In this document: positions 12,091 to 19,778 of the stretch, in pieces
How positions within the stretch are numbered: position 1 is the stretch's first letter
How the letters are laid out: every line of letters starts with the position of its first letter
Assembly: GCA_018241505.1 (NCBI GenBank)
Contig: JAFEDS010000017.1
Coordinates: forward strand, 310,001 to 374,000
Length of the DNA: 64,000 bases
Direction: 5' to 3'
Source of the DNA: Pseudomonadota bacterium
GTDB lineage: Bacteria; Pseudomonadota; Gammaproteobacteria; Steroidobacterales; Steroidobacteraceae
The notes under the pieces: generated by a model
What the model saw: the letters and a program-made list of their open reading frames with translations, nothing else
The model's database searches: none
Told to the model about the DNA's origin: nothing
Position numbers and translations under genes: made by a program

Positions 12091-12735
12091 CTATTGCAAC
12101 AGGTTGTTCTTGATGGCGTAGTAGGTGATGTCAGCGTTGGTCTTCATACTCATCTTCTCCAGGATACGCGTGCGGTACGTGCTGACAGTCTTCACGCTCA
12201 GAAACAACTTTGCTGCGATTTCCGACACACTCTTGCCTTCGGCGAGCTTGCAGAAGATCTGAAACTCGCGCTCGGACAGCACGCTGTGGCGCGGCTCGCC
12301 CGCCGGCCCCTGCATGCCGCTGACGAGCATTTCCGCCAGCTCGGGACTGACGTAACGGCCGCCCCGCACCGCCGCACGGATCGCCCGGCACAGCTCGCCG
12401 TCATCGGCCGACTTGCTGACAAAGCCGCTCGCGCCCGCCCGCAGTACATTCAAACCGTACTGATTTTCCGGGTAGGAGCTGAGTACCAGCGTCGCCACGG
12501 CTTCATGATGGGCCTTGATCTGTCGCAGAACGTCGAGGCCCGACATGTCGGGCAACGACAGGTCCAGCAGCAGCACATCGCACTGGGCACTGCGCAACAA
12601 GGCCAGGGCCTCGCGCCCCGATTTGGCCTCGCCTGCCCAGGCGAAATCCGGCTGGCTCTCGATGATTTGCTTCAGTCCCATCCGGACGAGCTGATGATCG
12701 TCGGCAACTGCAACTCGTGTAGCGGGCATAATCAC
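12091..12735 (-). CDS. NarL/FixJ-family response regulator
   Basis: The 214-residue product has an N-terminal receiver (ADDHQLVRMG, phospho-acceptor Asp58 in LLLDLSLPDMSG, Lys in GFVSKSADD) and a C-terminal LuxR-type helix-turn-helix (LSEREFQIFCKLAEGKSVSEIA, then SVKTVSTYRTRILEKM). It resembles the UvrY/GacA group by sequence pattern. It is the likely target of the HisKA_3 kinase encoded nearby. A start at 12729 (MPATRV) is equally plausible. It is the first gene of a two-gene leftward operon with the REC-only protein. Confidence 0.9.
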   Translation of the reverse strand: MIMPATRVAVADDHQLVRMGLKQIIESQPDFAWAGEAKSGREALALLRSAQCDVLLLDLSLPDMSGLDVLRQIKAHHEAVATLVLSSYPENQYGLNVLRAGASGFVSKSADDGELCRAIRAAVRGGRYVSPELAEMLVSGMQGPAGEPRHSVLSEREFQIFCKLAEGKSVSEIAAKLFLSVKTVSTYRTRILEKMSMKTNADITYYAIKNNLLQ

Positions 12736-12865: not shown

Positions 12866-14248
12866 CTAGTCCTGGGCTCCCACGGCTTCGTCCTTGGCTT
12901 CCGCCTCTACCTCCTTACCAGTATAAGTCTCGAGACGGTTGTATAGCGTCTTCAGACTGACACCCAGAATCTCCGCGGCCTTGCGTTTGACATGGCCGCA
13001 ATACGCCAACGTTGCCATGGTCACGCGCCGCTCGACCTCTTCCAGCGGCGTGCCGACGCGAATCGTTATGGTCGTGCCGTCATCCTGTTTGGGAGCGGCT
13101 TCCGACACTGCGACATCGAACTCGATGACATCGTCTGCCATGATGTACGTGCGCTGCACGTAGTTCTTCAACTCGCGCACGTTGCCGGGCCACGGATGTT
13201 GGTACAGCCGCACCAGCGCATCGCGCGAGAAGGTTTTGTTGGTGGATTCCTTCTTGTTGAGATCATCGAGGAAGAACTGCGCCAGTTGCTCGATGTCGGT
13301 GCCCCGGTCGCGCAGCGGCGGCAGCCGGATCGGAAACACATTCAGGCGGTGATACAGGTCCTCGCGCAATTTGCCGTCCGCGACCGCCTTTTCCGGCTCC
13401 CGGTTGGTGGCACAGATGACGCGCACATCGCTTGCAATGGTCTGGGTACCACCCACACGCAACACCGTGCCGGTCTCGAGGACGCGCAGCAGTTTCACCT
13501 GCAGCTCCATCGGCATTTCGGTGATTTCATCGAGAAAAATCGTCCCGCCGTTGGCGCGCTCGAAGAAACCTTTGTGTTGGCGGTCGGCACCCGTGAAGCT
13601 GCCGCGCTCGTGACCGAACAGCTCGCTCTCTATCAACTGGGGGGCGACGGCACCGCAGTTCAAGGGCAGGAAGGAGCTATCGCGCCGGCGTGACAACTCA
13701 TGGACAGTCGCAGCCGCGAGCTCTTTGCCCGTTCCGCTTTCACCAATGAGCATGACCGTCGCCGACGTCGGCGCCACCCGGGTCAACTGATCGTACAAGA
13801 CCTGCATGCGCGGGGAGCTGCCCAGGATGCGCCCGAAACGACCGAGCTTGCGCAGCTCTTCGCGCAGCTCACCAATTTCATGCTGCAATGCCGAAGTCTT
13901 TTTGGCGTGGCGCAGAACGGCCTGGACGCGGTCGAGATCCGCAGGCTTGACCAGATAGTCGCTGGCACCGGCCCTCAAGGCGGCGACGGCGCTATCCACT
14001 GTTGCGTGGCCCGTTACGATAATGACCTCGGTGGCCTCTGGCTTGTCCAGCTCACGAACCAGCTCGATGCCCTCGCCGTCCGGCAGGCGGAGGTCAGTCA
14101 GCAGCACATCGGGACGCTGCCGCCCAAGCTCGATCCGCGCCTCGCGGATGCTGTGAGCCCGGGCAACGGTAAAGCCCTCCATGCGCGCCACTTCCTGCAG
14201 CCAGTCCACGACATCCGGGTCATCGTCGACAATCAGAGCATGTGCCAT
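12866..14248 (-). CDS. NtrC-family sigma-54-dependent response regulator
   Basis: The 460-residue protein has a receiver domain (Asp52 in DVLLTDLRLPDG), an AAA+ domain and a Fis-type DNA-binding domain (HVKRKAAEILGVSLKTLYNR). The AAA+ domain shows Walker A GESGTGKE, Walker B GGTIFLDEI and the sigma-54-contacting loop. That loop reads GSFTGA rather than the usual GAFTGA, a variant seen in some functional activators. No kinase gene is adjacent; the hybrid kinase at 16647-18320 is a candidate partner. The sigma-54 gene itself is only 4 kb away, and sigma-54-type promoter elements lie nearby, including one divergent from this gene. Confidence 0.93.
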   Translation of the reverse strand: MAHALIVDDDPDVVDWLQEVARMEGFTVARAHSIREARIELGRQRPDVLLTDLRLPDGEGIELVRELDKPEATEVIIVTGHATVDSAVAALRAGASDYLVKPADLDRVQAVLRHAKKTSALQHEIGELREELRKLGRFGRILGSSPRMQVLYDQLTRVAPTSATVMLIGESGTGKELAAATVHELSRRRDSSFLPLNCGAVAPQLIESELFGHERGSFTGADRQHKGFFERANGGTIFLDEITEMPMELQVKLLRVLETGTVLRVGGTQTIASDVRVICATNREPEKAVADGKLREDLYHRLNVFPIRLPPLRDRGTDIEQLAQFFLDDLNKKESTNKTFSRDALVRLYQHPWPGNVRELKNYVQRTYIMADDVIEFDVAVSEAAPKQDDGTTITIRVGTPLEEVERRVTMATLAYCGHVKRKAAEILGVSLKTLYNRLETYTGKEVEAEAKDEAVGAQD

Positions 14249-14586: not shown

Positions 14587-15777
14587 TCAAAGATCCACAG
14601 TGTTAGGTGTGGGCCGGCTCAGCGGCAATCCCGAAATAGCACTGACAATGATCGACGTCACCATCACCACGAGCGTTGCCCCGGCCAACTGGCGGGCAAA
14701 TGGTGCGCTCAGGCCATGGTTGATTGAAAAGGCCAGACAGTAAAGCGAGGCCACGCCCCTGGCTGTAAACCAGGCGACACCGCGCCACTGCGCGTCGGGC
14801 ATCGAAATGCCTCCCAACGCGAGCCTCACGGCCAACGGGCGAATCAGCAGTATCAACACCGCGGCGAATGCGAGCATCCACCACTTGTACTCGATGCTGG
14901 CCACGAGAGTTCCCAACAACACCAGGACCCCGAGCCACGCGCACCGCTCGATGCGCGCCGAGATCCGCAGTACCCGCGGCATCAGCGGGCGGTTTCGCAG
15001 TGGCCGGCGCAAACGCCCCCCGTGAGAAAGGGCCACACCCGCGGCGAAGACGGCCAGAAAGCCATCGGTCCGGATCGCCATGGCCGCACCGTAAGCCAGG
15101 GCCGCCGCCGCGAACACCATGGCCTCTTCGAGAAAATCCGCCTGACGCTCCGGATCGAGCAACTTGATCCAGCGAGCCATGCCCGCGCCGATCAGTCCAC
15201 CCGCTGCGATACCTCCCGCGAGCGACCACGCCCCCAGGAGCGATGCCGGTCCGAGGGCCGCGGATTCCGCATCACTCAGACCCATCCATCCCAGAATCAA
15301 CATCACCAGGGCGGCTGCGAACCCATTGTTGATTCCGCTTTCGGCGGACAGGATGAACGCGGGCGAATCCTGTTCCGTTTCCGGGTGTGCACCGACATCC
15401 GCGGCCAGCACCGAGTCGCTGGGAGCGATGACCGCACCCAGCAGCAACGATTGGGCGAGGCTCATATCGAACATGAGGTGCGCGGCGGCGGCGGCGAGTC
15501 CGACGGTCGCGAGAGTGGTGAGAGTCGCGAGCCGCAGCGGGATCCGCCAGGTACGCCAGTCGATCGGCAGTTTCAGCCGCAGTCCCAGACAAAACAGACA
15601 GGTGAGCAGGACGATCTCACTGACGGTTTCAATCGGCGCGCCGTCCTCCAACAACTGCGGACGCAGCAGCCGCAGACCCAGGGGGCCCAGCAAGGCGCCA
15701 ATTGCGAGTGCGACGATAGCCGCGTGCGCGGGACGTCGCGTCAGTGCGAAATCGATTCTATTGCCGGGCGTGGCCAC
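14587..15777 (-). CDS. CPA1-type sodium/proton antiporter
   Basis: The 396-residue membrane protein has about 11-12 hydrophobic helices, the transport-site motif GAVIAPSDSVLAADV (with the key Asp) at about residues 113-127 and the neighbouring ESGINNGFAAALV motif at about 145-157. These are the NhaP/CPA1 core motifs. It lacks a long cytoplasmic C-terminal domain, so this is a short form. It overlaps the upstream DUF2383 gene by 20 bases, so the two are an operon, linking ion homeostasis to the stress island. Confidence 0.88.
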   Translation of the reverse strand: MATPGNRIDFALTRRPAHAAIVALAIGALLGPLGLRLLRPQLLEDGAPIETVSEIVLLTCLFCLGLRLKLPIDWRTWRIPLRLATLTTLATVGLAAAAAHLMFDMSLAQSLLLGAVIAPSDSVLAADVGAHPETEQDSPAFILSAESGINNGFAAALVMLILGWMGLSDAESAALGPASLLGAWSLAGGIAAGGLIGAGMARWIKLLDPERQADFLEEAMVFAAAALAYGAAMAIRTDGFLAVFAAGVALSHGGRLRRPLRNRPLMPRVLRISARIERCAWLGVLVLLGTLVASIEYKWWMLAFAAVLILLIRPLAVRLALGGISMPDAQWRGVAWFTARGVASLYCLAFSINHGLSAPFARQLAGATLVVMVTSIIVSAISGLPLSRPTPNTVDL

Positions 15778-16246
15778 CGGTACTCGCGGCTAAAACGCCG
15801 CCCTGCAAGGCATCGCTCATCAAAAGGCGAATCTGGTCGTAATCGCTCATCAGGTCCTCGAACTGGCGCAACACCACCTGCCGCACGAACTCCGGCAGAT
15901 GATCATCCAGCGCATTCCGGTATACCTCGAGCGCGTGATCCTCGCCACGCTCGCACTCATCGACCAGAGCATCGTCGTTGTCATGCGCCAGGGCGTCCGG
16001 CAGTGTCACCCAGCCGCGGCGATTCGTGCTGACGATTTTGCCGCGCGTGGCCGGATCACCGCCGAGCTGTCCGATCAGGCCACGCAGCTCCGCCGCGGCG
16101 AGCGCATGCCGGCTGGCGCGGGACACGAAAAGCTGCCGAAGGATATCCGCACGCGCGTGTTCCGCACAGGCAATGAACCCACTCTCACCATCTCGGGTAA
16201 CCGCCAACAATTCGCTGAGGGTCACTATGGTGTAACGGTAGTTCAT
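15758..16246 (-). CDS. PA2169-type DUF2383 four-helix-bundle protein
   Basis: The 162-residue protein matches the PA2169 family: TLSELLAVTRDGESGFIACAEHA at the start, then a helical body with DECERGEDHALEVYRNALDD and a C-terminal helix. The fold is a ferritin-like four-helix bundle whose function is unknown; in pseudomonads the family is linked to anaerobic and general stress genes. I use ATG 16246, which lies nine bases after GAGGGG (16255-16260); the GTG at 16255 would overlap that site. The same ten bases CGAGGGGTGA form the ribosome-binding region of the BON gene. Confidence 0.82.
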   Translation of the reverse strand: MNYRYTIVTLSELLAVTRDGESGFIACAEHARADILRQLFVSRASRHALAAAELRGLIGQLGGDPATRGKIVSTNRRGWVTLPDALAHDNDDALVDECERGEDHALEVYRNALDDHLPEFVRQVVLRQFEDLMSDYDQIRLLMSDALQGGVLAASTGGHARQ

Positions 16247-16255
16247 GTGGCTCAC

Positions 16256-16483
16256 CCCTCGTATCGGCCAGCGTTTTTGATTCCAGACGCTTCACAGCAT
16301 TCGTCATTCCCGACGACGCATTCGATCAGGGAAATTTCACTCTACGCAAAGACACTACGCGCCCGCGGAATTTTTTTCACGGGGAGTTTGGGGGGCGCGT
16401 ACGAATTACATGTCAGTGGCGGGGAATTAACTTGTGATAGCGGGCCCGCGGGCGATTCGCACTACCAACCCCGCGCAAACTGT
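16256..16483. other. Intergenic region upstream of the candidate small RNA
   Basis: This 228-base part of the 400-base gap must contain the DUF2383 promoter (leftward) and any activator sites for the rightward sigma-54 promoter. GCGGGCCCGC at 16440-16449 is a perfect palindrome, 35 bases upstream of the -24 box. A degenerate GG-N10-GC pattern lies on the minus strand near 16285-16302. I see no credible coding sequence. Confidence 0.5.
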
Positions 16484-16499
16484 TGGCACAACGGTTGCA
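16484..16499 (+). promoter_or_regulatory. Perfect-consensus sigma-54 promoter
   Basis: TGGCACAACGGTTGCA fits TGGCACRNNNNTTGCW at every defined position, with GG (16485-16486) and GC (16497-16498) exactly ten bases apart. It predicts transcription starting at about 16510, immediately before a set of three hairpins. It is intergenic and no rightward coding gene follows. Confidence 0.8.
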
Positions 16500-16509
16500 T
16501 GGCGTTGTG

Positions 16510-16638
16510 TAGGCGGGTGGCGACACGCCCACCCGCAGTCGCTCTAGTTTTGTAGTCACGGCCGCCGAGGGCGGCCGTGACTCTTGCCGAAGACCCCCCG
16601 TTTGGCGGGCTGTGGTGCGACCAGCCCGCTCCTTTTTT
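16510..16638 (+). ncRNA. Candidate sigma-54-dependent small RNA of about 129 nt
   Basis: Downstream of the sigma-54 promoter the sequence folds into three consecutive hairpins. The first is GCGGGTGGCG with CGCCCACCCGC (16513-16536, ten pairs with one bulged C, ACA loop). The second is a perfect 12-base-pair stem GTCACGGCCGCC/GGCGGCCGTGAC with GAG loop (16555-16581). The third is the terminator hairpin (16605-16629) with a six-T run. The linkers are single-stranded, and the second contains the C-rich stretch ACCCCCCG (16593-16600). No open frame with a ribosome-binding site fits. The promoter, fold and terminator are seen; that it is a regulatory RNA is inference. Confidence 0.65.
16605..16638 (+). 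terminator. Intrinsic terminator of the candidate small RNA
   Basis: GCGGGCTG (16605-16612) and CAGCCCGC (16622-16629) form a perfect 8-base-pair stem with a nine-base loop, followed by TCC and TTTTTT. It is oriented rightward. On the other strand no T-run follows the stem, so it does not serve the hybrid-kinase gene. Confidence 0.88.
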
Positions 16639-16646
16639 CGTTGCCT

Positions 16647-18320
16647 TCATCGACCCGCGTCGGCCAGTCGCCGCACCAGGGGCACGAATGTGTTGAAGTC
16701 CAACGGCTTGGGCACATGCAGATCGAAACCCGCATCCATGGCCGCCTCGATGTCGCTGCTGGAGGCATAACCGGTGACCGCGATGGCCAACATCTGGCGG
16801 CCCGACTGCAGGGCCCGAAGCCGGCGTACGAGTGAATACCCGTCCTCTACCGGCATGCCAATGTCCGTCACAATAATGTCGAAGTGAACGCCGGTCTCCT
16901 GCAGCTTCGCGAGCGCCGAAGTCGCTGAATCCGTCACGGTGACATTGGCTCCTTCGAGCTTGAGCGTTTCCGCGACCACCGTACGAGCGTCCGGCTCGTC
17001 ATCGACCACGAGGATCGACAATCCACCGAGACTGGCGCGTCCAGATGTGGAACGCGGATCGCCTGCAGGTTGAGGCTCCGATCTCCAGGGCTGACGCGCT
17101 GGGAATCTCGCGACAAACCGGGCACCACGACCGACGCCAGGACTATAGGCCGCCACGGTTCCTCCGTGCAGGGTGACGATCTCGCGCACGAGGGCCAGGC
17201 CCAAACCCAAACCGCCCGTGTGCCGAGTAATGGAACTGTCGCCCTGGCGGAAACGATCGAACACGTGCGGCAGCAGCTCAGGCGCGATTCCCTGCCCCGT
17301 ATCCTCGACACTCAACTCGGTGTAGCCACCGGCATTGCGAAGACCAACGGTAATATTTCCAGAGCTCGACGTAAATTTCAGAGCGTTTGACAACAGGTTG
17401 GACACCACCTGTTGCAGGCGGTCGGGATCGCCACGCAATTGACCCGCACCCGGCTCGATGTCGGCATGTAACGTGATGCCCCTGCTCGCCGCGGACGGCC
17501 GTGTCTGATCCAGGGTTGCGGCAACTACCTTTGCGAGTTGCATCGGGCGGGCCTCGATTCGCAACTTGCCCGTTTCAATGCGCGCCAGGTCGAGGAGGTC
17601 GTTCACCATTTTCAACTGGGTGCGCGCACTGTGCTCGATACGCGGCGTAATGGCCGCCACCTCCGTGTCATCAGGCCGCTTGACGGCGAGGATGCGATTC
17701 CAGCCGAGGATGGCATTCAGAGGCGAACGCAACTCGTGTGAAAATACCGACAGAAACTGATCTTTACCGCGATTTGCTGCTTCCGCATCGATGCGCAGGC
17801 GCCGCTCGTGTTCGAGTGCCGCCGCGCGTTCAGCCGAATCACTGTCCGCGGCGCGCTTTTCACCGCTGATGTTGCGCGAGGTGAGAATGAGGTTGCGATG
17901 ATTGCCGTCGCCGTTGACGGTGCGACCATGCAGCGCCAGCCATTGAGTTACACCATTCGGCCACAGCGCCTGAACCACGAGGTCGAAATCCACGCCGTTC
18001 GCGAATGCAGCCCGCACCGCATCCGCCAACACCGCCCGAGCTTCTGACACAACGCGCTCTTCCAGCTCTTCCCAGTGGATGGATGCATCCGGCGCCCAGC
18101 CAAATTCTGCTTTGAATTGTGAATTTGCCCGCACGGCGCGGGTCTCACCCGTGAGTACGCAAAAACCCAAGCGCGATGCGGCGACGATGAGTTCGAGCTC
18201 ATCGTTGCGGCGTTCCAGGACCGCACAGCGCACCTGGGCCCGTTGCAGCGCGTCCGAGACTTCCTCGCCGGGGAGGGGCGTCTCAACGGAACTGCGTTCT
18301 GGCTCGTGAATTGATCTCAT
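16647..18320 (-). CDS. Hybrid sensor histidine kinase with PAS and C-terminal receiver
   Basis: The 557-residue protein has a short coiled N-terminus, a PAS-like domain (about 45-165), a HisKA dimerisation helix with FSHELRSPLNAILGW at about residue 190, a HATPase domain with DTGQGIAPELLPHVFDRF and GGLGLGLALV, and a C-terminal receiver with DIIVTDIGMPVEDGYS. No membrane segment is seen, so sensing is cytoplasmic. The receiver suggests phosphotransfer inside the molecule and possibly onward to one of the clustered regulators. It is divergent from rpoN with 81 bases between starts, so the two may respond to the same signals. Confidence 0.92.
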   Translation of the reverse strand: MRSIHEPERSSVETPLPGEEVSDALQRAQVRCAVLERRNDELELIVAASRLGFCVLTGETRAVRANSQFKAEFGWAPDASIHWEELEERVVSEARAVLADAVRAAFANGVDFDLVVQALWPNGVTQWLALHGRTVNGDGNHRNLILTSRNISGEKRAADSDSAERAAALEHERRLRIDAEAANRGKDQFLSVFSHELRSPLNAILGWNRILAVKRPDDTEVAAITPRIEHSARTQLKMVNDLLDLARIETGKLRIEARPMQLAKVVAATLDQTRPSAASRGITLHADIEPGAGQLRGDPDRLQQVVSNLLSNALKFTSSSGNITVGLRNAGGYTELSVEDTGQGIAPELLPHVFDRFRQGDSSITRHTGGLGLGLALVREIVTLHGGTVAAYSPGVGRGARFVARFPARQPWRSEPQPAGDPRSTSGRASLGGLSILVVDDEPDARTVVAETLKLEGANVTVTDSATSALAKLQETGVHFDIIVTDIGMPVEDGYSLVRRLRALQSGRQMLAIAVTGYASSSDIEAAMDAGFDLHVPKPLDFNTFVPLVRRLADAGR

Positions 18321-18345: not shown

Positions 18346-18361
18346 TGGCATGGCTGTTGCT
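18346..18361 (+). promoter_or_regulatory. Sigma-54-like promoter in front of rpoN
   Basis: TGGCAT-GGCTG-TTGCT differs from the sigma-54 consensus at one defined base (C to T in the -24 box). GG (18347-18348) and GC (18359-18360) are correctly ten bases apart. Transcription would begin near 18372, 30 bases before the rpoN start codon. It suggests that sigma-54 transcribes its own gene. Confidence 0.55.
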
Positions 18362-18401: not shown

Positions 18402-19778
18402 ATGTCCAATGCCGTAATGGGACTGCGTCTCAAGCAGCAGCTCACGCTGACGCCGCGACTGCAGCAATCGGTCAAGCTTTTGCAGTTATCGGCCCTGGAG
18501 TGTGTGCAAGAACTGCACCAGGCGATTGCGCAGAACCCGTTCCTGGAAGAGCCCGCGGACACCGCGGACAGCCGATCGCAGGGCGAAGAAGGATCCACGG
18601 AGACGTCCTCGGACGACTCTTCCCGCAGCGACCTGGATTTCTCCGGGAGCGCCGGCAGCAGCGGCGGTGGGGACGACGCGCCCGATTGGACCGAATGGAC
18701 GGCCTCCCCGGCCACGCTGCACGACTCCCTGCATGAGCAACTCCTGCTTCTGGGGCTCAACGAGCGCGACTATCTTCTCGCCAACCTCGTTGTGGACGCG
18801 CTGGACGAGGATGGCTTCCTGCGCCAGCCGCTGGAAGAAATCGAGGAGCTCGCTTCCGGCACCGAGCCGGGAGAGCTGGAAACCGCCCTGCGCATTGTGC
18901 AGACCCTGGAACCGAGCGGTGTCGGAGCCCGGGACCTGGGGGAATGCCTGGCGTTGCAGCTCCAGGCCCTGGAAGCGCAGACGCCGGGCCTGGCCCTGGC
19001 ACTGGATATTGTGCAAAACCGCCTCAGCCTCATGGCGGCCCGCGACAACACGCGCCTGCTGGACGCTCTGGGATGCTCGGAGGACGACCTGCGGCTCGCC
19101 ATGGAGCTGATCCGCAGCCTGGACCCGCGACCGGGATCCAAGATCGGGAGTTTCGAGCCGCGCGCCATCGTACCGGATGTCGTCGTACGCAAGGACAAGA
19201 AACGCTGGAGCGTGAGCATCAATGCCGCCATCTACCCGCGCATCCGCGTGAATCAACAGTACGCTGATTATTTCCGTCAGACCCGAGACGGTGAAACGGC
19301 GCTGCTCGCCCAACACCTGCAGGAAGCACGCTGGCTGGTGCGCAACCTGGAACAGCGTTTTCTCACTATTCAACGCGTGGCTGAGGCCGTCGTTGCTCGG
19401 CAACGTAACTTCTTCGAGTACGGTGATCTCGCCATGCGTCCGCTGACGCTTCGCGAAATAGCGGATGAGTTGGGACTGCACGAGTCGACGGTGTCGCGTG
19501 CGACCAGCCACAAGTACATGGCGACGCCTCGGGGTGTTGTTGCTTTCAAGCGCTTCTTCTCGCGACAACTCGCCACGACCAGCGGCGGATCCTGCTCCGC
19601 GACGGCGATTCGCGCCCTGCTGCGCGAGTTCATTGCGGCGGAGGATCGGCACAATCCGCTGTCGGATGTGCAGTTGACCGAGTTGCTGGCGAATCGCGGC
19701 GTGAAAGTCGCTCGCCGGACCGTCACCAAGTATCGACGCTCAATGTTGTTGCCGGCGGTTGATTTCCGCCGCGCGTAG
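18402..19778 (+). CDS. rpoN: RNA polymerase sigma-54 factor
   Basis: The 458-residue protein has all three sigma-54 regions: the Gln/Leu-rich activator-response region (LKQQLTLTPRLQQSVKLLQL), the core-binding middle, and the DNA-binding end with the helix-turn-helix (TLREIADELGLHESTVSRA) and the RpoN box ARRTVTKYR near residue 440. GAGG at 18388 precedes the ATG. Sigma-54 directs RNA polymerase to -24/-12 promoters and needs an NtrC-type activator, one of which is encoded at 12866-14248. The usual gammaproteobacterial neighbours (lptB, hpf, ptsN) are absent, so this may be a second, specialised rpoN copy. Confidence 0.96.
   Translation: MSNAVMGLRLKQQLTLTPRLQQSVKLLQLSALECVQELHQAIAQNPFLEEPADTADSRSQGEEGSTETSSDDSSRSDLDFSGSAGSSGGGDDAPDWTEWTASPATLHDSLHEQLLLLGLNERDYLLANLVVDALDEDGFLRQPLEEIEELASGTEPGELETALRIVQTLEPSGVGARDLGECLALQLQALEAQTPGLALALDIVQNRLSLMAARDNTRLLDALGCSEDDLRLAMELIRSLDPRPGSKIGSFEPRAIVPDVVVRKDKKRWSVSINAAIYPRIRVNQQYADYFRQTRDGETALLAQHLQEARWLVRNLEQRFLTIQRVAEAVVARQRNFFEYGDLAMRPLTLREIADELGLHESTVSRATSHKYMATPRGVVAFKRFFSRQLATTSGGSCSATAIRALLREFIAAEDRHNPLSDVQLTELLANRGVKVARRTVTKYRRSMLLPAVDFRRA

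Follow-up and report, generated by a model that had tools for sequence, protein, structure and literature searches.

What does a sigma-54 promoter of exact consensus do in an intergenic gap where it faces no gene? The question is raised by positions 16484 to 16638 of a stretch of 64,000 nucleotides (nt), here called the window, on contig C8 of a 7.9-Mb genome of the Steroidobacteraceae, designated G000; other genomes are given G numbers and slices of individual loci L numbers. A preliminary description had proposed an undescribed sigma-54-dependent small RNA (sRNA) made of three stacked hairpins. By comparison among relatives the sRNA is a real family, and we are confident both of that and of its membership in an island of regulatory genes; its conserved unit is a core of 48 nt rather than the three hairpins. 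Our overall reading, to which we lean by a small measure, is that of a trans-acting sigma-54-dependent sRNA that would silence ctpA, the gene for a periplasmic protease, and that belongs to a self-contained island equipped with a kinase, an NtrC-type activator, and a second sigma-54 factor (RpoN2) of its own.

The promoter and the predicted transcript

The -24/-12 promoter matches the consensus exactly. The pattern TGGCAY-N5-TTGCW occurs three times in the window against 0.12 copies expected from shuffles, none of 100 shuffles reaching three; the copies lie before the sRNA, before an rpoN gene (18346), and within long open reading frames (ORFs) (39784). Counting 12 nt from the C of the -12 element places the predicted start at 16510, in agreement with the preliminary description. 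That description also had the promoter pointing rightward into no gene, and no likely gene was found in the sense direction: downstream of the sRNA there are mechanical short ORFs only, and the hybrid kinase gene at 16647 to 18320 is on the minus strand. The region from 16505 to 16645 has a predicted folding energy of -68.6 kcal/mol (z = -3.7), which none of 200 shuffles equaled. The three hairpins were borne out in this sequence with small corrections to their dimensions. The first has the 10 base pairs (bp) claimed, with a single bulged C in addition; the second is perfect as claimed, with 13 bp in place of 12; and the terminator hairpin does end in six T residues, preceded by CC, on a stem (16604 to 16612 with 16622 to 16630) of 9 bp including a closing G-U pair, not 8. 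The elements of the locus, all on the plus strand, are as follows.

16484..16499, plus strand: sigma-54 (-24/-12) promoter TGGCACAACGGTTGCA of the sRNA, exact consensus, an element shared by all 17 members
16510..16638, plus strand: predicted full-length sRNA, long form, 129 nt, ending in the T-run
16513..16536, plus strand: hairpin 1 of the predicted fold, lineage-specific
16554..16582, plus strand: hairpin 2, from the fold and RNAalifold; other long-form members have it with a different sequence
16591..16638, plus strand: ultraconserved 48-nt core, a C-rich single strand plus intrinsic terminator, from alignment and covariance-model search; the whole predicted transcript in strict short forms
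16591..16605, plus strand: proposed seed AGACCCCCCGUUUGG, with bases 1 to 13 predicted to be unpaired, complementary to ctpA leaders
16604..16638, plus strand: Rho-independent terminator hairpin and T6, from the sequence and the predicted fold

A 48-nucleotide core reached by two promoter layouts

The conserved unit comprises AGACCCCCCGUUU, which is C-rich and unpaired in the predicted fold, followed by the terminator hairpin. A BLASTN search with 16470 to 16645 against 60 relatives matched 12 genomes at an E value of ≤0.01: the window itself aside, one match was nearly full length (78% identity), four were restricted to about 48 to 52 nt of the 3' end with 96 to 100% identity, and seven further matches were short (19 to 34 nt). 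Sixteen aligned cores, the window included, were 98% identical over 48 columns, and the first 40 nt were 99.5% identical to the window across 15 relatives, with a worst case of 97.5%. The best 48-nt segments of the neighboring genes gave mean identities of 91.7% for the activator (a figure inflated by duplicates and by the window's own copy), 88.7% for rpoN2, and 83.5% for the kinase. The core ends in an intrinsic terminator, with hairpin and T-run, and holds no conserved ORF; the short form is too small for a gene.

A perfect -24/-12 element, with GG and GC 10 nt apart, stands upstream of the core in all 17 loci, at two kinds of distance. The sigma-54 promoter begins 81 to 135 nt ahead of the core's CCCC in ten members (the long layout) and 26 to 31 nt ahead of it in seven (the short layout); for the strict short forms, six in number, transcription is predicted to start exactly where the core does, on an A in five of them and on a T in the sixth. 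Because of these two layouts, the same 48 nt is predicted to constitute either a complete RNA or just the 3' end of a longer transcript, which suggests a minimal sRNA. Both 5' hairpins are lineage-specific. Hairpin 1 is not conserved, and hairpin 2 varies in sequence among long-form species with its pairing retained; 8 of 23 pairs predicted by RNAalifold show at least one two-sided change, all within hairpin 2 of the long forms, in an alignment of nine rows that is gappy at that hairpin and has a covariation term near zero. The three stacked hairpins therefore fail as the defining feature, since the first two are missing in 7 of 17 members, whereas the promoter and the terminator stem, which had likewise been expected to persist in relatives that keep the flanking genes, do so.

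Distribution of the sRNA family

Across a collection covering 84,980 species, an exact pattern from the 3' piece matched 15 contigs, and the exact 18-mer ACCCCCCGTTTGGCGGGC was present in 11 of 396 genomes of the order, every one a carrier. A covariance model of the core, searched with Infernal's stricter filters, under which diverged members may be missed, matched 11 of 58 genomes of the genus and 24 of 217 of the family at an E value of ≤0.01. Sixteen matches in the family were strong (E ≤ 1.5e-16), each the single match in its genome. Among the eight weak ones, L075 (in G381) is orthologous by synteny; its hairpin loop has diverged, and it has a perfect promoter of its own. It brings the carriers to 17 of 217. 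The other seven were rejected: L073, L074, L077, L078, and L080 lie at another locus and have, by eye, TTGACA-like instead of sigma-54 promoters, and L076 and L079 look like chance.

The preliminary description had called the sRNA undescribed, and this stood. Rfam gave no match at gathering cut-offs in the window; four relaxed matches within 16400 to 16700 scored 11.6 to 15.1 bits against cut-offs of 48 to 74, which amounts to no family membership. Nor was a description of the sRNA found among the top-listed literature on Steroidobacter, RpoN2, C-rich, and CtpA sRNAs, a scope that takes in few subscription papers.

An island with a likely activator of its own and a second rpoN

A gene for sigma-54, starting at 18402, and a gene for an NtrC-type regulator, at 12866 to 14248, flank the sRNA, as had been noted earlier. 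The genes and sites of the island are as follows.

12091..12735, minus strand: LuxR-type response regulator whose best NCBIfam match, UvrY/SirA/GacA, is below the model's cut-off
12866..14248, minus strand: NtrC-type response regulator with receiver, AAA+ domain with GSFTGA loop, and Fis-type helix-turn-helix; proposed activator, from domain matches and co-occurrence
14587..15777, minus strand: Na+/H+ exchanger-family antiporter, in 11 of 15 slices
15758..16255, minus strand: DUF2383/PA2169-family four-helix-bundle protein, encoded divergently to the sRNA; 10 of 15 slices have it
16647..18320, minus strand: hybrid histidine kinase, convergent with the sRNA, in 13 of the 15 slices L014 to L028 (not L022 or L028)
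18346..18361, plus strand: second sigma-54 promoter TGGCATGGCTGTTGCT, before rpoN2; of 12 loci, the window included, with slices that reach the start of rpoN2, 7 have it
18402..19778, plus strand: rpoN2, second sigma-54 gene, from the two-copy count in carriers

Orthologs of the activator are present in 14 of the 15 slices L014 to L028, and the 15th begins at the sRNA; rpoN2 is present in 11, and the remaining four end too soon. At E ≤ 1e-180, a threshold that drops cut genes too and at which alone the absence of the activator elsewhere holds (a weakness of this comparison), 16 of 217 family genomes yielded an activator ortholog, and each of the 16 carries the sRNA. G410, the remaining carrier, has the gene truncated where its contig stops, with 95% identity over 289 residues. 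The activator's sigma-54 contact loop is GSFTGA, where GAFTGA is usual. As a separate observation, the activator is unusually conserved relative to its neighbors (83 to 95% identity). Two rpoN copies were counted in all nine carriers tested and one in all nine noncarriers tested; because of this count, the rpoN of the cluster is a second, cluster-specific copy. The promoter before it is a perfect sigma-54 match and lies 40 nt ahead of the start codon. The five loci without this promoter are all short-form, and the pattern suggests that rpoN2 may itself be under sigma-54 control in long-form species.

The layout is not uniform. The L028 slice shows no kinase and ends 0.8 kb downstream of the sRNA; in L022 the kinase was undetected although the slice continues, which counts against the island as proposed. 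In L021, L022, and L026 the activator is nearer the sRNA, with the antiporter and DUF2383 genes undetected in between. Orthologs of the LuxR-type regulator (86 to 95%) occur in 7 of 15 slices, the others being too short or giving receiver cross-matches only.

The region upstream of the promoter contains a candidate enhancer. The inverted repeat TGTA-N5-7-TACA has 13 exact copies in 10,200 nt of sequence, namely the 600 nt before each of the 17 sRNA promoters, although it was picked by eye from the same regions in which it was counted; the remaining 117,396 nt of these loci contain none, and 1.2 Mb sampled from the window's genome contains 15. Thirteen of the 17 loci have the repeat in exact form, and it is degenerate in the window, L020, and L023. 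That it is imperfect in the window and was not seen in L075, among the 17 loci examined, also speaks against the assignment.

16398..16410, plus strand: candidate enhancer (upstream activating sequence), degenerate version CGTACGAATTACA of the inverted repeat, 86 nt upstream of the promoter

Another motif, GCA[CTG]GA-N2-[TC][GA]TGCC, is exact in 12 of 17 loci against a shuffle mean of 0.007. It was dropped as an enhancer because its other strand reads GG-N10-GC, a sigma-54-like promoter toward the DUF2383/antiporter side; the window has weak versions only. We read the upstream region as a putative divergent sigma-54 control region.

Proposed action and the candidate target ctpA

In the mechanism that we propose, the kinase would phosphorylate the NtrC-type activator, which would bind the upstream inverted repeat and open the promoter for polymerase already bound there through sigma-54, RpoN2 being a likelier sigma factor for this than RpoN1. 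Control of the sRNA by sigma-54 and this activator is, in our judgment, likely. A short RNA ending in the 48-nt core would be produced, and its unpaired C-rich segment would cover G-rich ribosome-binding sites and block translation, a mode of repression that we put slightly above even. Our leading candidate for the target is the mRNA leader of a CtpA-like periplasmic C-terminal processing protease, in which case the island would lower this protease and change envelope turnover.

The candidate came from a scan for CGGGGGGT shortly before ATG in 13 carriers, in which 20 chosen places, read among the matches listed, pointed to one orthologous gene, ctpA. In the window's genome it encodes a protein of 435 amino acids whose first part matches PDZ and CtpB_N-like domains and whose catalytic part we take, from its motifs, to be S41. 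In the leader, CCAAAC(C)GGGGGGUUU stands five to six nt ahead of AUG; in G032 the sequence at this distance is AACGGGGGGUCU, giving 12 contiguous pairs. Orthologs of ctpA were found in 17 of 17 carriers and 2 of 9 noncarriers at E ≤ 1e-50, and in 10 of 26 noncarriers at a looser threshold. Hybrid energies between the seed and the ctpA leader (-30 to +3), with gene starts set by eye from the N-terminal sequence (that of G026 being doubtful), ranged from -16.2 to -26.4 kcal/mol in 15 of 17 carriers, the other two being G428 (-15.0) and G381 (-11.6). In eight of the ten noncarriers with ctpA (G061 and G094 were left out) they ranged from -2.2 to -15.8 kcal/mol (one-sided Mann-Whitney P = 0.00013 versus carriers). 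Elsewhere in 1.2 Mb of G000, none of 855 other gene starts, with the best of up to five starts taken for each, reached the -24.8 of ctpA, and 33 reached -18.5. Two other starts in G000, on contigs C42 and C1, also pair well with the seed: that of an mnmA-like gene (by eye, -22.9) and that of an ORF of 930 amino acids (-23.2).

Several points weigh against this target and the scheme built on it. The 855 starts sample about 15% of the genome, and ctpA was found through a scan for complements of the C-run, which makes its statistics post hoc. When the flanks of the seed were shuffled with C6 kept, 115 of 1,000 shuffles matched or beat the real seed across the full set of 17 leaders; support from the flanks is confined to G000, G005, G032, G258, and G410 (23 to 26 of 1,000 each), and in the six short-form genomes the real flanks did worse than the shuffle average. 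The pattern CCAAACN{0,1}GGGGGG is not enriched: outside the sRNA itself it matches 16 times in 17 carriers, with ctpA accounting for 4, and 13 times in 17 noncarriers. The contrast between the two groups is not independent, since the carriers are related to one another and noncarrier ctpA genes have leaders laid out differently. G381, whose RNA has diverged, has no ctpA site and reaches -7.5 with its own RNA. The transcription from which all these steps would follow is itself predicted from sequence.

The exact complement AACGGGGGGTC has 10 matches outside the sRNA in 16 carriers, one of which is ctpA (G032); the two in G032 and G275 were read. Thirteen loci read from the pattern searches shared no gene apart from ctpA. 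The link between the sRNA and ctpA is suggestive, and we regard ctpA as the true target only tentatively, as a proposal somewhat likelier to fail than to hold. More speculative by a shade is the fuller picture in which the near-invariant output of the island is a 48-nt RNA that represses a periplasmic protease, the 5' hairpins being gained or lost as the promoter moved to or from the core, and in which the core is a minimal sRNA, perhaps among the shortest sigma-54 transcripts. If the link is true, a signaling island would be tied to a periplasmic protease and envelope control in an uncultured lineage of soil bacteria. The co-inheritance of the sRNA with a likely activator and a spare sigma-54 also offers a handle on the purpose of second rpoN genes.

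Alternative explanations

The same sigma-54 sRNA might act on something other than ctpA, its C-run serving either many G-rich ribosome-binding sites, as in sX13, or one undiscovered mRNA. The excess of CGGGGGGT-N0-16-ATG over its reversed control (226 versus 148 over 13 genomes, among the matches listed) fits this idea, though it may reflect no more than ordinary ribosome-binding sites, and the flank shuffles give ctpA no special standing in short-form species. On the other side, the ctpA site is the sole one conserved among orthologs in the places read, a minority of the pattern matches; it is clear in 15 of 17 carriers and has its 12 contiguous pairs in G032. We consider a different target rather unlikely. 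That the core works through a protein, as an Hfq-, ProQ-, or CsrA-like sponge, and not by base pairing would explain why the terminator loop UGGUGCGAC is almost invariant despite having no pairing with the ctpA site; yet in G381 the loop differs and the C-run is kept, and the core contains no GGA, and we think this very improbable.

Less probable still is a terminator, leader, or attenuator of a neighboring gene. The locus is intergenic and ends in a terminator, and in L022 rpoN2 follows after only about 580 nt, an interval in which no kinase was detected; but rpoN2 has its own sigma-54 promoter there as well, and in the window it is the next rightward gene, 1.8 kb off, past the convergent kinase and again with its own promoter. 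The minus-strand reading of the hairpin lacks a U-run, and the spacing between hairpin and kinase varies. A mobile or repeated element (a REP sequence or an integron site) or a chance structure can be set aside almost entirely. Very high identity across diverged genomes might hint at mobility, but the 16 strong carriers each have a single match, with no multiple dispersed copies seen, the core adjoins the same activator or rpoN2 wherever the slices reach, and viral contigs gave no exact 19-nt match.

Relation to known sigma-54-dependent and C-rich sRNAs

To our knowledge, few sRNAs depend on sigma-54, and those that do tend to regulate globally. GlmY/GlmZ, CrcZ/CrcY, and NrsZ are among them, and their neighboring genes, like those of the Qrr sRNAs of Vibrio, differ from the genes found here; the present RNA matches no Rfam family, and the CA-rich Hfq-decoy repeats of CrcZ were not seen by eye in the core. 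The trans-acting RNA proposed here resembles the Qrr sRNAs (LuxO/sigma-54) on the input side: in the accessible part of the source, Qrr1 expression depends on sigma-54 and on enhancer-binding proteins under sensor-kinase control (PMC10162802). It differs from them in having no Rfam match, a second sigma-54 gene in the cluster, and a core of 48 nt.

The output side is probably similar to that of sX13 of Xanthomonas, described in the accessible part of its source as an RNA of 115 nt with three stems and three C-rich loops, its unpaired C-rich segments being complementary to G-rich motifs near start codons (PMC3771888). Here, in contrast, there is a single C-run before the terminator, a sigma-54 promoter, and no Rfam match, and 7 of 17 members have no 5' hairpins. 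For such action on ribosome-binding sites there are the unpaired C-run and the clear ctpA sites, with flank specificity in five genomes only. By sequence comparison the sRNA is a member of neither the Qrr nor the sX13 family. Two sigma-54 genes per genome are likewise found in the RpoN1/RpoN2 pairs of Xanthomonas, Ralstonia, and Bradyrhizobium; in the accessible text of the literature on these pairs, among the matches listed, no sRNA was tied to the second copy.

Other candidate RNAs and sigma-54 promoters

The five rejected matches at another locus, four of them (L073, L074, L077, and L078) from genus g37 and the fifth L080, look like a different short RNA candidate, with a TTGACA-like promoter and a small 5' hairpin followed by TGACCCCC, or in L080 by CGACCCCC, and then by a G+C-rich terminator. 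The L073 copy of this candidate is divergent from a protein of 311 amino acids that appears by eye to be MerR-like with a possible B12-binding part. These RNAs could form another C-rich sRNA family, or they could be distantly related to the first.

Perfect -24/-12 sites were scanned in 15 genomes, and 34 regions of five genomes were read. A loose copy of GCA[CTG]GA-N2-[TC][GA]TGCC (up to four changes) was present in two of these regions only, L153 and L174. Thirteen regions (L153, L154, L159, L166, L170 to L172, L175 to L178, L180, and L183) have a perfect sigma-54 promoter before a protein gene; by eye, these genes resemble fliL, flgB, an ammonium transporter gene (amt), nirB, and genes for an aldehyde dehydrogenase and a porin. 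Genes for FN3-type lipoproteins, again by eye, also lie behind perfect sites in the regions read. One type of porin with such a promoter recurs, by eye, in five genomes. In L164, L165, L168, and L169 a perfect sigma-54 promoter lies 150 to 350 nt upstream of one type of small lipoprotein-like gene (... ALSGCGG ...), and in G355 and G031 these genes occur in pairs on a single contig.
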